Positions 22,783 to 49,868 of a stretch of DNA of 50,679 bases are shown here, piece by piece. The stretch is from positions 1 through 50,679 of the IMG/VR virus record IMGVR_UViG_3300025083_000056, one strand, 5' to 3'. The translations under genes were made by a program, and so were the position numbers. Under the pieces are notes generated by a model. It did no database searches. It saw nothing but the letters and a program-made list of their open reading frames with translations, and was not told the origin of the DNA. Numbering within the stretch: the first letter of the stretch is position 1; every line of letters begins with the position of its first letter. This DNA comes from a virus.

Positions 22783-23934
22783 ATGCTGGAAGCACTACAC
22801 ACTCTCATATCAATCATCTTCAGGGAAGCAGACCCTAATCTTACCTACGCGTTTGAACCCGTGACCATGGGCCTCATGGCGGGTAGCGCTTTGCTTAAGG
22901 CTCTAACTGGTAAGATGCAGTCGGGGATGCAATCCGATGCGTTCCGCGATCAAGCTGAGGCTGATGCGCTGCGAGCGAAGACTTCAATAGGGGAGGCAGA
23001 CAGAATGATTGAGGCGGCGGAGCGCCGCAGAGCAGACTATGGTTTGGGGCCGTCCTTCACAGACCTAAGAAGAATGGTCATGGAGGATCCCACCTCTGAC
23101 TACTTAAGGAGGGAGGCGGCCAAGACTGAAGCGAAGAATCTTGACGCTCTAAAGTATGGAGGCGCTAGATCTCTTGCTGCGGGAACTCAATCCGCTACTC
23201 AGCAAACACTAGACAACCTGTCTAAGATTGCCGCAGATGAGCAAGCAAGGAAGGCTCAGGGTCTTGGCGTCGTAGGAGCTCAAGAGCAGCGAGTTGCAGA
23301 ACAGAAGCTTGTGGATGCCAGAACAGACCTCACGCTCGGTAGAGGTATGCGTGCCGAGGGTTTGGCGCAGCAGTATGGATCGGAAGACATGATGAGGTTC
23401 GGAGATGTGCAGAAGAGAATGGGTAACCTTCAGTTCGGCAGTGACCTTATTGGGTCTGGAATTGACATCGCAATGCAGACTGATTGGGGTCAAGGCAAGG
23501 GTGCTGGAGGCGGACTCAAGAAACTTTTTGGAGGTGGTGGCGGAGGCAACATTGAGAAAGCCGCTGAGTTGTTTGGAACAGGGGGTACAGGGGGTACTTC
23601 AGGCGGAGGTGGTGTAGACCTTTTTAGTGGGGCAGACCCTTACGCCCAGATTGACATCTTCGGCAGGAAGGAAAACGGAGGGAGAGTGACAGCCTTCAAG
23701 GAAGGAGGGGAACTGATGAGAGACCAAGAAACTCCTGGGGAGTTCTCTCACAAAAACAACCCTATTGACATCATGCAAGACGGAGCTAAGATCGGAGAGA
23801 TGACTGGAGGAGAAGGCATTGTGTCACCTGAAGACATGGGTGAATGGGAACAAGAAGCTGCTAAGGGGGACACTCCGCTTCACAGGAAAGTCAGAGCTTG
23901 GTTCAGAAAAATAAATCAAAAGGATAATGGCTGA
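22783..23934 (+). CDS. Internal virion / ejection protein
   Basis: This 383-aa protein has a short hydrophobic start, a helical Ala/Arg-rich body, a glycine-rich linker at about 245-290 and a C-terminal EFSHKNNPIDIMQDG, EMTGGEGIVSPEDM motif. That motif recurs in phage internal proteins located before giant ejection proteins. The ATG is fixed by the promoter 5 nt upstream, although an internal ATG at MGLMAGS would also give a sensible protein. It overlaps the next gene by 8 nt. It is likely packed in the head and released with the DNA. Confidence 0.6.
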   Translation: MLEALHTLISIIFREADPNLTYAFEPVTMGLMAGSALLKALTGKMQSGMQSDAFRDQAEADALRAKTSIGEADRMIEAAERRRADYGLGPSFTDLRRMVMEDPTSDYLRREAAKTEAKNLDALKYGGARSLAAGTQSATQQTLDNLSKIAADEQARKAQGLGVVGAQEQRVAEQKLVDARTDLTLGRGMRAEGLAQQYGSEDMMRFGDVQKRMGNLQFGSDLIGSGIDIAMQTDWGQGKGAGGGLKKLFGGGGGGNIEKAAELFGTGGTGGTSGGGGVDLFSGADPYAQIDIFGRKENGGRVTAFKEGGELMRDQETPGEFSHKNNPIDIMQDGAKIGEMTGGEGIVSPEDMGEWEQEAAKGDTPLHRKVRAWFRKINQKDNG

Positions 23935-35455: not shown

Positions 35456-37120
35456 CTACGCCTCACACACTGCGCAATTTAAGATATCTCTACCAACAGC
35501 TTGCGCCTGGTTGACACCGCGTTGATAGTACAGGGTCTTGATACCCAGCTCCCAAGCCTTGATAACCAGTTGATTGATGTCCTTCAAGGGTACCTCGTCG
35601 CTGATCATGACGTTAAGTGACTGACCTTGATCAATGTACTTCTGGCGATCTGCAGCTTGCTGCACAACCTCCATCTGAGAGATCTCAGCAAACGTCTTGA
35701 ATACATCCTTCTCGTCCTGTGTAAGGAAGTCTAGATGCTGTACTGATCCACCCTTCATCATGATGTCCTTCCATGTGGCTGCATCATCCTTACCCTTCTC
35801 GGCAAGTAGGTCTTTGAGGTATGGGTTCTTGTATGTGAACTTACCCTTAGCCAAATCCTTTGTGAAGTAGTTAGACTGCAGTGGCTCAATAGACGGAGAC
35901 ACCTGACCGAGGATGAACGAGGAAGAGGTAGTGGGGGCTACTGCCATGCGTGTGCTATGACGTAAGCCATAACCCTTGAGTACCTCTGGCTCACCACCCA
36001 TCAATGCCAACGCCTGACTCATCTTGTCAGATGAATCTTGGATGGATCGGAAGATGGACCTGTTCAGGCCACGAGCCATGACGCTCTCGAATGGGATGCC
36101 CTTGCTCTGCAGGTACGAGTGGTACCCAAGCACTCCGATACCGATGGACCTGTGCTCCTCCGCAAAACGAACAGCCTTCTCCATGAACGGTAGATCCTTA
36201 GCCTTGTCTACGAACTCAGTGTATACTGCGTCAAGAAAGGCTGTCATGATCTGCACAGCGTCAGTTCCCTTCCAGTCGTCGTAGTGCAACGCATTCATCG
36301 AAGACAAGCAGCACACGAAAGACTTGGTGTCGTCAGTGTACTCCATGATCTCAGCGCACAACTGTGAGTGCTTAATCTCCATACCCTTATCTACGTAGTA
36401 GTCTGGGCGATCTTTGTTCACGTTGTCACGGAAGAAGATGTATGGGTAACCTGTCTCACTGCGCTTCTTGTGGATCTTGGCCATGATAGAGCGCTTCTCT
36501 TGGTCGCCACGGACCATGTCCTTCATCCAGTCGTCTCCGATGCACACTGCAAACGACACGTCCTGAATGGGATGCCCCTCGCTGCGGATCTGCAAGAACT
36601 CCTCGATGTCTGGGTGTTCTACGTCTAGGTATGCAGCCCAGCTACCACGACGAACCTTACCCTGCGAGATGATGTTAGTCGTTGTGTTGAACAACTCCAT
36701 CATGGACACTGCTCCGTTAGTCTCTCCGCCTGTGCTAATCTTAGCGCCACGAGGACGCAGGTTACCGAAGTACGTAGCCGTACCTCCACCCACTTTACTC
36801 ATGGCTCCAATCTCTGCAGCACCACGCAAGATGTCGAACGTATCGTCCTGAACTGTGGTCCCGAAGCACGAGATAGGCAGGCCTTTGTTCTTGCCGAAGT
36901 TCACCCACACTGGGGTGCTCAGACTAAACCATCCACGGCTCATGTAGTCGTAGAACGTATCGGCGAAGTTGTCGAACGCCCCTTCCATTGTCTTCTCAAG
37001 GATCGCCTCTGCGTGATCGGCAATCTCTCTCACCCTCTCTTCGACCGTCTGGCCAGGGTCGAGGTAGCCCTTCTCCATAAATTGTCGGGTCTCTTCTGTG
37101 ACCCAGTAAAACTCTTTCAT
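35456..37120 (-). CDS. nrdA: Class I ribonucleotide reductase, large subunit
   Basis: NrdA reduces ribonucleotides to deoxyribonucleotides with a radical passed from NrdB. At 554 aa it is short: the N-terminal ATP-cone is missing, so dATP inhibition is probably absent. Visible elements include active-site Cys85 (LPISCFG), the finger-loop Cys255/Glu257 (HSQLCAEI), Cys270 (SFVCCLSS), RSIGIGVLGYHSYL, PTTSSSFILGQ, the radical-relay tyrosines 531-532 (LYYQR) and the C-terminal redox pair C549/C552. The usual Asn two residues before the finger-loop Cys is Gln253. The gene overlaps nrdB (TAATG) and supplies dNTPs for replication by degrading host nucleotide pools further. Confidence 0.95.
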   Translation of the reverse strand: MKEFYWVTEETRQFMEKGYLDPGQTVEERVREIADHAEAILEKTMEGAFDNFADTFYDYMSRGWFSLSTPVWVNFGKNKGLPISCFGTTVQDDTFDILRGAAEIGAMSKVGGGTATYFGNLRPRGAKISTGGETNGAVSMMELFNTTTNIISQGKVRRGSWAAYLDVEHPDIEEFLQIRSEGHPIQDVSFAVCIGDDWMKDMVRGDQEKRSIMAKIHKKRSETGYPYIFFRDNVNKDRPDYYVDKGMEIKHSQLCAEIMEYTDDTKSFVCCLSSMNALHYDDWKGTDAVQIMTAFLDAVYTEFVDKAKDLPFMEKAVRFAEEHRSIGIGVLGYHSYLQSKGIPFESVMARGLNRSIFRSIQDSSDKMSQALALMGGEPEVLKGYGLRHSTRMAVAPTTSSSFILGQVSPSIEPLQSNYFTKDLAKGKFTYKNPYLKDLLAEKGKDDAATWKDIMMKGGSVQHLDFLTQDEKDVFKTFAEISQMEVVQQAADRQKYIDQGQSLNVMISDEVPLKDINQLVIKAWELGIKTLYYQRGVNQAQAVGRDILNCAVCEA

Positions 37121-38103
37121 TAAAATAATTCTTCTGCGGTGAAACTCTTGGTGCTCTTTGCGTAGTCGATGGGCTTCTTGTGGAAGAAGTCAGACAGGGC
37201 AGAAGCATACACCTCCTCATCCATCCATGCTGTCACCTCTAGCTCGTCTTGGTTCACGGGGAACTCAAAGGCAAAGCCGATGCGACGCATGCTCTCGTTC
37301 ACACGATTCTTCAAGTAGTTGTTTAAGATAGACTCGCTAAGGAACTCATTATCAAAACCTTGCAAGATCCACTTAATCAATCCGCTCTCTGCGTCGAGGG
37401 CTACTTGCGCCTCTTCCAAGATGCGTGACTCCAGGTCAGCGTCGAACAACTCAGGGTGCTCAGCTCGGATCTGATTGACCAGAGCCATGCCTCCCTCTGC
37501 GTGCAGATTCTCTTCTTTGCTCGTGTACTGCACAACGTTAGCCGTGTCCTTGAGAACAGCCTTGAATCTATTGAATCCAAGGATGGTGTAGAACTGGCTG
37601 AACAGTGACACGTTCTCAGTGAAGAGGGTAAAGAGGATGAGACTGTACAGGAACTGCTTACGATCGTCTTCGTATACGCGATCAACGTACTTGTTGAGAT
37701 AGTTAACGCGGTTCAGTACAGGCTCATTCTCCAGGAGCGTCTTGAACTCGTCCTCCAATCCGAGCTTCGTCAGGATCTCTGAGTAGGCACGGGAATGGAC
37801 TACTTCAACGCCTCCAAATACAGCCCCCATGTCCGCAATCTCTGGCTTAGGCAGATGCTTACCAATGTTCGACCAGTATGACTTCACTGCCACTTCAACC
37901 TGCGAGATGAGAAGGATGGCGCGTTTGATCACATCGCGCTCCTGCTCGGTCAGGCTCGTATGGTAGTCCTGAACGTCAGCCTTGAAGTTAAATTCATTGT
38001 GAGTCCAGTGGCTTGCCCACATCGCGTTGATGAGTGGGTCAGTGATTTCAGAATAGTCGAAGGGCTTGTAGCTCAGCCTCTTCTCAAAGATTGAGGTAGT
38101 CAT
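37120..38103 (-). CDS. nrdB: Class I ribonucleotide reductase, small subunit
   Basis: This 327-aa protein holds the diiron/tyrosyl radical cofactor. Metal ligands are visible as Glu70 (SQVEVA), Glu100 and His103 (GVEVVHSRAY), Glu163 (LFTENVS), Glu198 and His201 (KEENLH). The radical tyrosine is Tyr107, four residues after His103, as in E. coli Y122. The C-terminus ends in an acidic tail (FTAEELF) that would bind NrdA. The first iron ligand is Glu rather than Asp, which is common. It lies upstream of nrdA on the same transcript and downstream of two nuclease genes. Confidence 0.95.
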   Translation of the reverse strand: MTTSIFEKRLSYKPFDYSEITDPLINAMWASHWTHNEFNFKADVQDYHTSLTEQERDVIKRAILLISQVEVAVKSYWSNIGKHLPKPEIADMGAVFGGVEVVHSRAYSEILTKLGLEDEFKTLLENEPVLNRVNYLNKYVDRVYEDDRKQFLYSLILFTLFTENVSLFSQFYTILGFNRFKAVLKDTANVVQYTSKEENLHAEGGMALVNQIRAEHPELFDADLESRILEEAQVALDAESGLIKWILQGFDNEFLSESILNNYLKNRVNESMRRIGFAFEFPVNQDELEVTAWMDEEVYASALSDFFHKKPIDYAKSTKSFTAEELF

Positions 38104-46851: not shown

Positions 46852-46894
46852 GTGTATATCACCTTCTTCGTAAACTCAGAAGGTGTATATACAC
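46852..46894 (-). repeat. Conserved leader hairpin, copy 1
   Basis: The core stem CACCTTCT/AGAAGGTG encloses a 10-nt loop; beyond one bulged T the stem extends by 8 further AT-rich pairs. The loop is identical in the copies at 48805 and 49815. It lies 36-78 nt before the ATG at 46816. It could act as an RNA leader element or as a DNA hairpin promoter. Confidence 0.8.
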
Positions 46895-47235
46895 TCACAC
46901 ATAAGTAGCAGAGGGTGGAGTCGAACCACCACACAAGCTCATACTCGTTGCCATAAGCCCTCGGTAAAGGGTAGAAGGAGTAGATATTGCTGTGTACACA
47001 CCAATGCGATGCCTCCATCGCTAGTGTCACTGCCATGTAACGAATGCAGGTGGAGCCTGAACGTCTAGGTGTCACCCGTTCAGTGGCATTGCTCTCCTTG
47101 CCCGCACTCTCCCTTGATGCTTGTTACCCCACAAGGTATCGGGGCGTGTGGAATATATCTCGACCCTGCCGCATCCACACTTGACGGGATTCAAGGTCAC
47201 TTGTTAGTATGCGTTTAACGTCCGCCGACTAATAG

Positions 47236-48767: not shown

Positions 48768-48804
48768 AATTGGTAGATTTGAAGTTTGAAGTTTGAGAGG
48801 GTTC

Positions 48805-48843
48805 GTATATTACCTTCTTCGTAAACTCAGAAGGTATATATAC
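48805..48843 (-). repeat. Conserved leader hairpin, copy 2
   Basis: The core stem is TACCTTCT/AGAAGGTA, where the outer C-G pair of the other copies has become T-A on both sides. The 10-nt loop is unchanged, and the bulged T and distal GTATAT/ATATAC pairing are kept. This compensatory change supports a selected hairpin. It lies 38-76 nt before the ATG at 48767. Confidence 0.82.
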
Positions 48844-48852
48844 TCACCTCTA

Positions 48853-49023
48853 TTATTGGAAGTCCGTTGTCGAGATGCCGAACTCTCGGAGGTCGATGTA
48901 CACATCAGCGTCAAACGCATCTGACACCATGTGAATGGCCTCCTCGTCCTCCATGACGGAGAAGATGAGGTATGACATCACGAGTTCCTTGTGGCTCATG
49001 CCGTTGAATGGGTTGTCGCTCAT
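48853..49023 (-). CDS. Unknown small acidic protein
   Basis: The ATG at 49023 gives 56 aa and overlaps the stop of the upstream membrane gene (ATGA). Acidic and helical (VMEDEEAIHMVSDAFDADVYI). No family is recognised. Confidence 0.65.
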   Translation of the reverse strand: MSDNPFNGMSHKELVMSYLIFSVMEDEEAIHMVSDAFDADVYIDLREFGISTTDFQ

Positions 49024-49163
49024 CGTACTTGCGTTTTGGCTTCCGCCACGTCCAACAAGTAAGAGATGAACTGGCCGATGCCAGTCAACACGATTCCCCA
49101 CGCCAGTGACATTTGAGCGTACATCAGGAAGGGAACACCGAAGGTTGCAATGAAATCTTGCAT
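49020..49163 (-). CDS. Small membrane protein downstream of hammerhead ribozyme 2
   Basis: The ATG at 49163 is chosen because the leader motif and the ribozyme lie just before it. The 47-aa product is one hydrophobic helix (FGVPFLMYAQMSLAWGIVLTG, then IGQFISYLLDV) with a short polar tail (AEAKTQVR). It may be a holin-like or superinfection-related membrane peptide. After ribozyme cleavage its mRNA would begin 28 nt before the ATG with a 5'-hydroxyl. Confidence 0.7.
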   Translation of the reverse strand: MQDFIATFGVPFLMYAQMSLAWGIVLTGIGQFISYLLDVAEAKTQVR

Positions 49164-49185
49164 AGCAAATTGAAGTTTGAAAATT

Positions 49186-49234
49186 GATACTGACACCAAA
49201 GGTGTTTCGGCTATTGAAGCCTCATCAGAGTACC
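49186..49234 (-). ncRNA. Type I hammerhead ribozyme 2
   Basis: Read on the minus strand: stem I GGUACU, core CUGAUGAG, stem II GGCU/AGCC with loop UCAAU, core GAAA, stem III ACACC/GGUGU with loop UUU, cleavage triplet GUC, then AGUAUC closing stem I. All invariant core bases (CUGANGA, GAAA, UH) are present. Cleavage is expected between 49192 and 49191, leaving a 28-nt leader before the ATG at 49163. The stop codon of the upstream 50-aa gene (49225-49227) lies inside the CUGAUGAG core. Stems I and II differ from ribozyme 1 by paired changes. Confidence 0.93.
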
Positions 49235-49377
49235 TGCTTGACGGACTTGACCCGATGCCCATCAGGGCAAAGGTCAAGCGCTCGTTCCTTGGCGTCCTTG
49301 TCACTTGACGCCTCGAAGGTGACCGCATCCCAATCGTCGCGGTCGAACCCTCGGTAGTGAATCATTCGGTAGGTCAT
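49225..49377 (-). CDS. Unknown small protein ending inside ribozyme 2
   Basis: The frame starts at ATG 49377 (overlapping the 53-aa gene stop) and ends in UGA at 49225, giving 50 aa (MTYRMIHYRGFDRDDWDAV...KSVKQVL). The last codons form stem I of the ribozyme and the stop is part of its core. No family is recognised. Confidence 0.65.
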   Translation of the reverse strand: MTYRMIHYRGFDRDDWDAVTFEASSDKDAKERALDLCPDGHRVKSVKQVL

Positions 49378-49535
49378 GACAAATCTTCGATTTCTTGTGT
49401 GACCATCATCTGCATGTCACATGACATACTTGTGAACTCCTCTGAGTTGTAGTAGGCATCAGCCCCGAACACGTTGTACATGTCCACCATGGCTTGCAAC
49501 TTGGCGATTCTCGCCTGAACATCTGAATTTTTCAT
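49374..49535 (-). CDS. Unknown small protein downstream of hammerhead ribozyme 1
   Basis: The ATG at 49535 gives 53 aa (MKNSDVQARIAKLQAMVDM...), a helical acidic peptide. The ribozyme and leader motif upstream fix the start. It overlaps the next gene by 4 nt. No family is recognised. Confidence 0.68.
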   Translation of the reverse strand: MKNSDVQARIAKLQAMVDMYNVFGADAYYNSEEFTSMSCDMQMMVTQEIEDLS

Positions 49536-49555
49536 TGGAAATGAATTTGAAGTTT

Positions 49556-49607
49556 GATACAGACACCCCGAAGGGTGTTTCGTCCATTGAGGACTCATCA
49601 GTGTACC
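49556..49607 (-). ncRNA. Type I hammerhead ribozyme 1
   Basis: Read on the minus strand: stem I GGUACA, core CUGAUGAG, stem II GUCC/GGAC with loop UCAAU, core GAAA, stem III ACACCC/GGGUGU closed by a UUCG tetraloop, cleavage triplet GUC, then UGUAUC closing stem I (6 bp, one G-U). Stems II and III are closed and stem I is open, so it is type I. Cleavage is expected between 49562 and 49561, leaving a 26-nt leader. The upstream 51-aa gene stops 7 nt before the ribozyme. Confidence 0.95.
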
Positions 49608-49614
49608 TGTGGTG

Positions 49615-49770
49615 TCACATACCCAAGTGGGCTTCGAGTTCTTCGTCGAGGTGGTATTTGAGGATGTAATCCTTTGCAGAGGGGTCGTCACCTAACGTCC
49701 TGTAGACGTCTACACTTGTCATGTAACCTGAAGCGATGACGCAATCGATGATGTCTGAAACGTTTGACAT
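49615..49770 (-). CDS. Unknown small protein upstream of ribozyme 1
   Basis: The frame starts at ATG 49770, 11 nt after the leader motif, and ends in TGA at 49615, giving 51 aa (MSNVSDIIDCVIASGYMT...EELEAHLGM). It is acidic at its C-terminus. Hairpin copy 3 precedes it. No family is recognised. Confidence 0.65.
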   Translation of the reverse strand: MSNVSDIIDCVIASGYMTSVDVYRTLGDDPSAKDYILKYHLDEELEAHLGM

Positions 49771-49814: not shown

Positions 49815-49853
49815 GTATATCACCTTCTTCGTAAACTCAGAAGGTGTATATAC
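49815..49853 (-). repeat. Conserved leader hairpin, copy 3
   Basis: The core stem is CACCTTCT/AGAAGGTG with the same 10-nt loop and bulged T as the others, and GTATAT/ATATAC distal pairing. It lies 45-83 nt before the ATG at 49770 and just after the end of the 183-aa gene. Confidence 0.82.
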
Positions 49854-49868
49854 TCCCCCACTCATGGG

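Follow-up and report, generated by a model that had tools for sequence, protein, structure and literature searches.

Two type I hammerhead ribozymes at cistron junctions of a phage operon and their probable part in protein-free mRNA processing

The locus and its junctions

The window analyzed here, a stretch of 50,679 nucleotides, comes from a phage of Bacteroidota, whose terminase places it near Flavobacterium and Cellulophaga podophages (about 40% identity; 47% to an uncultured podovirus). Between 50.4 and 48.5 kb, its minus strand carries a succession of small ORFs with no Pfam matches at the cut-off, including none for the 53-aa ORF downstream of hammerhead 1. The features of this operon are collected in Table 1. 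Elsewhere on the minus strand, positions 35456-38103 hold the large and small subunits of a phage ribonucleotide reductase.

Table 1. Coordinates of the ribozymes, leaders, ORFs, and hairpins in the window
Feature	Position	Strand	Basis or remark
Hammerhead ribozyme 1, type I	49556..49607	-	sequence, model R1, MFE fold
Hammerhead 1 stem I	49607-49602 with 49561-49556	-	6 bp
Hammerhead 1 core CUGAUGA	49601-49595	-	
Hammerhead 1 stem II	49594-49591 with 49585-49582	-	4 bp
Hammerhead 1 loop II UCAAU	49590-49586	-	
Hammerhead 1 core GAA	49581-49579	-	
Hammerhead 1 stem III	49578-49573 with 49568-49563	-	6 bp; UUCG loop 49572-49569
Hammerhead 1 predicted self-cleavage site	C17 at 49562 / U at 49561	-	inferred from hammerhead numbering on the sequence
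Leader left on downstream mRNA by hammerhead 1	49536..49561	-	26 nt, directly before ATG 49535; UCAAACUUCAA at 49557-49547; includes TCAAACTTCAA
53-aa ORF (MKNSDVQARIAKLQAMVDMY...) downstream of hammerhead 1	49374..49535	-	ORF list
51-aa ORF upstream of hammerhead 1	49615..49770	-	7 nt between its stop and stem I
Hammerhead ribozyme 2, type I	49186..49234	-	sequence, model R1, fold
Hammerhead 2 predicted cut	49192/49191	-	
Leader after predicted hammerhead 2 cut	49164..49191	-	28 nt; UCAAACUUCAA at 49180-49170
47-aa ORF (MQDFIATFGVPFLMYAQMSLAWG...) downstream of hammerhead 2	49020..49163	-	
50-aa ORF between both ribozymes	49225..49377	-	start overlaps stop of 53-aa ORF (ATGA); stop inside hammerhead 2 core
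Conserved non-hammerhead hairpin, copy 1	49822..49866 (approximate ends)	-	preceding cistron junction; same leader motif after it, 49791-49781
Conserved hairpin, copy 2	48803..48850 (approximate ends)	-	then TCAAACTTCAA twice, 48796-48779
Conserved hairpin, copy 3	46855..46900 (approximate ends)	-	before ORF 46816-46229; degenerate leader

Read 5' to 3' on the minus strand, hammerhead 1 consists of stem I (GGUACA with UGUAUC), the core CUGAUGA, stem II (GUCC with GGAC) closed by UCAAU, the core GAA, and stem III (ACACCC with GGGUGU) closed by UUCG and followed by the C of the predicted cut; stem I carries no loop or bulge of its own. This structure is exactly the MFE fold (-18.9 kcal/mol). The fold energy is only modestly better than that of shuffled sequences (z -2.0), and the evidence therefore rests on the core and on comparison rather than on stability. 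The uncut fold does not sequester the start codon, and exposure of the ATG therefore does not depend on cleavage; the leader is predicted to be unstructured (MFE 0).

A second hammerhead lies 370 nt downstream. Its stems I (GGUACU with AGUAUC), II (GGCU with AGCC), and III (ACACC with GGUGU, around UUU) all differ from those of the first copy through compensatory changes, around the same CUGAUGA and GAA and an unchanged loop II, and the UGA within its CUGAUGA (49227-49225) terminates the 50-aa ORF upstream. All catalytic positions (CUGANGA, GAAA, and UH at the cut) are intact in both copies, and their three stems pair with an open end on stem I, as judged from fold, model, and covariation. The initial annotation had proposed a type I hammerhead with a complete core, stems of 6, 4, and 6 bp, and UUCG on stem III, cut at 49562/49561 to leave a motif-bearing 26-nt leader before the 53-aa ORF within a polycistronic minus-strand message. 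Sequence and MFE fold bear out this description, and the chain of minus-strand ORFs around the ribozyme agrees with the context claimed. The hammerhead is real but no lone oddity: the second copy had been missed, and up to 14 copies occur in other phages.

The operon has two kinds of junction. In the first, an ATGA joins the stop of one ORF to the start of the following one, as at 49377-49374 and 49023-49020. In the second, the leader UCAAACUUCAA comes after a structured element, which at two places (49.6 and 49.2 kb) is a hammerhead and at three others (near 49.85, 48.83, and 46.88 kb) is a different conserved hairpin. In the resulting layout, [51 aa] cut [53 + 50 aa] cut [47 + 56 aa] hairpin [84 aa ...], the ribozymes delimit translation units and not single genes, and the junctions with an ATGA overlap or the other hairpin indicate that a ribozyme is not needed at every gene. 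The hairpin is built from an outer stem, a UGA/GAA or GA/GA internal loop, 6-8 bp, a bulged A, a 7-bp stem, and an apical UGA-G-UUUA-C-GAA loop. Base pairs in both its inner and its outer part covary among copies and relatives, it precedes a TCAAACTTCAA-type leader, and its loop sequence is present at 16 IMG/VR loci. No Rfam family matches this hairpin, which may represent either an undescribed ribozyme or a site cut by an RNase III-type enzyme.

Detection and anatomy of the family

The Rfam type I covariance model, proposed as a check in the initial annotation, recognized neither hammerhead 1 nor hammerhead 2 at its gathering score: for hammerhead 1, RF00163 gave 20.9 bits against a gathering score of 34, which is a curated threshold and not a catalytic feature, and which most core-intact members of the family likewise fail to reach. 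RAGATH-1 (RF03152) gave 23 bits against 56.3. Pistol and type II hammerhead models had no match in the window at the gathering score. As these matches, obtained from runs at the gathering score and at E values up to 5, were weak, we built a covariance model of our own (R1) from 20 gap-free rows of phage relatives. R1 scores 74.7 bits (E = 1.1e-19) on hammerhead 1, which was included in its training, and 63.1 bits (E = 3.5e-16) on hammerhead 2, which was not. A further match on the plus strand (23705-23754; 15.9 bits, E = 0.05) lies in the structural gene region with broken stem I pairs and is taken as chance.

The pattern CTGATGAGNNNTCAATNNNCGAAAC, which fixes the core around stem II and demands no stem pairing, matched at least 120 IMG/VR viral contigs, against none for a scrambled pattern of equal length and spacing. 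Among the matches listed, 131 copies (86 distinct) have stem I, stem III, and a UH cut site, and with a single exception these also pair in stem II. At the level of sequence comparison, it is confirmed that hammerhead 1 is not a chance occurrence. Within four phage sequences (L124-L127), Rfam at its own cut-off recovers 4 of the 28 R1 matches, and it reports no hammerhead in L128-L132 or in 13 other loci. Phage annotation thus misses most ribozymes of what is a large, mostly unannotated family.

The family shares with the RF00163 type I hammerhead the core CUGANGA...GAAA...UH, three stems in type I order, and a cut after C17. It departs from that model in an open stem I of almost invariably 6 bp, capped A..A or (U/C)..U, and in a 4-bp stem II with a U-type pentaloop or GUAA. 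RAGATH-1 has the same core, but the window copy scores 33 bits under its cut-off and gives no support for the extra 5' hairpin of RAGATH-1. A rule-based scan, which required a stem I of at least 5 bp, yielded 180 distinct examples, 173 with a stem I of exactly 6 bp. The base at the cut is C or A across the family, and stem III varies in length between loci while the stem itself is kept.

Natural hammerheads owe their speed to contacts of loop II with the end of stem I, and the family shows covariation at this place. All 147 examples with a U-type pentaloop II (e.g., UCAAU) have the stem I cap A..A, whereas all 13 with a GUAA loop have (C/U)...U and none has A..A. In a fresh scan for GUAA, 25 of 27 new examples have a 6-bp stem I, 25 have U at the 3' cap, and none has A..A. 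The Fisher value for loop II versus cap is 2e-19, which cannot be read as a probability since the sequences are related; for the same reason, the family counts are not independent. The clean switch of loop and cap together fits a direct contact between loop II and stem I, and this covariation argues for a working tertiary fold. In an alignment whose rows were chosen to have stem I and stem III pairing, 99.7% of cells are paired, against 27-38% in sliding controls, and 13 of 16 pairs show double changes.

Placement between cistrons and occurrence in other phages

Comparison establishes the position of the family along with its structure and conservation. In 133 of 175 examples, the predicted cut is followed after 18-36 nt by the ATG of an ORF of 25 aa or longer, the median being 26; in the first set, 55% of cuts lie 20-30 nt from the ATG, against 6% for random same-strand positions. 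The upstream stop usually lies no more than about 20 nt from where stem I begins and is often a UAG at the A-G cap, a UAA at the stem I end, or the UGA of CUGAUGA. Leaders after the cut are poor in G, and only 15 in the first set carry a Shine-Dalgarno-like run. Five close relatives of the window (L149, L152, L155, L156, and L025) keep the hammerhead-leader cassette between differing flanking proteins. An orthologue of hammerhead 2 lies between orthologous proteins in L019, and there stem II has changed from GGCU/AGCC to GGGU/ACCC, a double compensatory change. At 4211-4430 of L019, two hammerheads stand in tandem: hammerhead 1 leads directly into another whose stem III holds an insert of about 100 nt, and the leader comes after this second copy.

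Searches of whole records with R1 found 14 copies in a 39.8-kb T7-like phage (G005), 8 in G012, and 7 each in G024 and G026; the copies of any one phage share the same strand. The genes directly downstream include those for single-subunit RNA polymerase, ATP-dependent DNA ligase, DNA polymerase, and MazG. Cultured carriers are the Pelagibacter phages HTVC019P, HTVC131P, and Jormungand and the Flavobacterium phage elemoB. A particularly informative record is L132 (IMGVR_UViG_3300030102_003384), in which six successive junctions at 305-2515 hold pistol, hammerhead, hammerhead, pistol, pistol, and hammerhead, and one pistol and one hammerhead precede the identical leader AACUUUAAAACAAACAAAUUAUG. 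The pistol (RF02679) is likewise a self-cleaving RNA but has an unrelated fold, and two unrelated self-cleaving folds in the same place before the same leader are the best evidence that cutting there is selected.

Message processing and its alternatives

From these comparisons, we consider it probable that the hammerheads provide a protein-free, unit-by-unit processing of mRNA that leaves short, unstructured 5'-OH leaders. Both window copies would be transcribed within the minus-strand operon, and, with the passage of RNA polymerase, each ribozyme would fold and cut the message at its cistron junction. The upstream message would then end in the stem II and stem III hairpins with an expected 2',3'-cyclic phosphate, and the downstream message would begin with a 5'-OH and a G-poor, unstructured leader of 26-28 nt, just enough for ribosome binding. 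We infer the self-cleavage, these ends, and an effect on translation or stability. An initiating ribosome covers about 26 nt upstream of the start, and a 26-nt leader close to this footprint favors a clean 5' end for each translation unit. Stem I may be kept at 6 bp because the contact of loop II with the cap would drive cleavage, yet the short product helix could still dissociate. The reading of hammerhead 1 as a leader processor, already offered in the initial annotation, gains support from comparison, namely the same position in well over 100 examples, compensatory change between orthologues, and pistols at equivalent junctions of another phage.

One long transcript would in this way become a series of translation units with standard leaders, freed from upstream sequence, a result comparable to two known arrangements. 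In T7, sites at which host RNase III cuts the polycistronic early mRNA between cistrons lie around the genes for RNA polymerase and ligase; the ribozymes occupy comparable places, but a protein enzyme acts on a hairpin in T7, whereas here the RNA would cut itself. The insulator RiboJ, engineered from a plant satellite RNA ribozyme and an added hairpin, also places a hammerhead in the 5' leader to standardize the mRNA start; unlike RiboJ, the phage ribozymes are natural and lack this addition, and the family offers many compact natural leader insulators for engineering. It is an evenly balanced proposition that many tailed phages mature their messages without protein, using interchangeable ribozymes (this hammerhead, pistol, and perhaps the window hairpin) at each translation-unit border to cut about 26 nt before the start, and that in T7-like phages these replace the job of host RNase III. 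Given the overlap of the upstream stop with the ribozyme, ribosomes terminating at this stop would prevent folding, and cutting may depend on upstream translation, which we offer as a guess.

A close second to processing into translation units is that active hammerheads serve mainly mRNA stability, with a hairpin-protected upstream 3' end and a downstream 5'-OH that blocks 5'-monophosphate-dependent decay. This calls for the same cut chemistry, and it agrees with a stem III hairpin one base from the new 3' end that is kept across loci despite its variation in length. Stability alone would leave both the tight 18-36 nt spacing from cut to ATG and the shared G-poor leaders unexplained; we give it somewhat less than an even chance as the main role, and the two roles may act together.

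Because ribozyme and leader are kept in relatives whose proteins differ on both sides, the cassettes could also be thought of as recombination linkers for shuffling small early genes, with ribozyme activity secondary. This is improbable, as compensatory drift in the stems suggests selection on structure and not on sequence identity, and pistols replace hammerheads. More doubtful still is the excision of segments between paired ribozymes as circular mRNAs or small circular RNAs, by RtcB-type joining of 2',3'-cyclic phosphate to 5'-OH: the two window copies would free some 370 nt of RNA whose ends could be joined, and many phages carry serial copies, but RtcB-driven circularization was rejected on the absence of RtcB from 24 such phage records (a host enzyme could act in its place), and a search by Perreault et al. 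for spliced or circular products was negative (PMC3088659). That the window copies, which score below the Rfam cut-off, are a mimic or relic serving as a hammerhead-like binding site or terminator that no longer cuts is highly improbable in view of the intact catalytic positions in both, the C or A at the cut throughout the family, the covariation of loop II with the stem I cap, and the lack of a U-run after stem III. This lack also rules out an intrinsic terminator, and a retrozyme or satellite-type dimer is ruled out by two single copies with different flanks.

For processing into translation units, there is a precedent. Perreault et al. (2011) described clustered hammerheads in prophages, showed activity for some of them in vitro and in E. 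coli, and suggested processing into operon- or gene-length mRNAs; they also placed the HHphage hammerhead of haloviruses HF1 and HF2 13 nt before the helicase start codon (PMC3088659). The present family resembles this set in its location at gene borders and in the proposed single-gene mRNA processing, and differs in its one uniform architecture, fixed spacing from cut to ATG, and presence in many free phages, at up to 14 copies each. The initial annotation had called the use as a leader processor little described. We found no description of the leader arrangement of this family in the open-licence literature, and its uniform architecture and scale look new, but the idea of mRNA processing by clustered hammerheads dates from 2011. 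A 2017 review named the role of hammerheads in prokaryotes, with their persistent link to phages, an open question (PMC6155905). At least 120 viral sequences carry the family in this position, which gives the question a concrete candidate answer, and the uniform family, fixed place, covariation of likely contacts, and cultured carriers (HTVC019P, HTVC131P, and elemoB) make the function directly testable.

Several further loci place ribozymes in other surroundings. In L025 (7527-7683, minus strand), a window-type hairpin is immediately followed by a hammerhead, which lies about 40 nt before a tRNA gene (RF00005, 38.8 bits, with an odd anticodon call); tRNA processing was rejected as a general role, as the window has no tRNA and a tRNA follows the hammerhead in L025 only. 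Streptomyces R4-type phages were considered as family members and set aside, their sequence matches being type II hammerheads instead. Above the Rfam cut-off, seven of these occur in Streptomyces phage R4 (L136) and five in Streptomyces phage Paedore (L137), within 5 and 8 kb, many at gene borders and absent from the record annotation. Finally, in three Pelagibacter phages (L133, L134, and L138), a hammerhead lies shortly before marR and integrase genes, with ArdA nearby in L134, a neighborhood of the kind reported in 2011 for Agrobacterium prophage hammerheads (PMC3088659).
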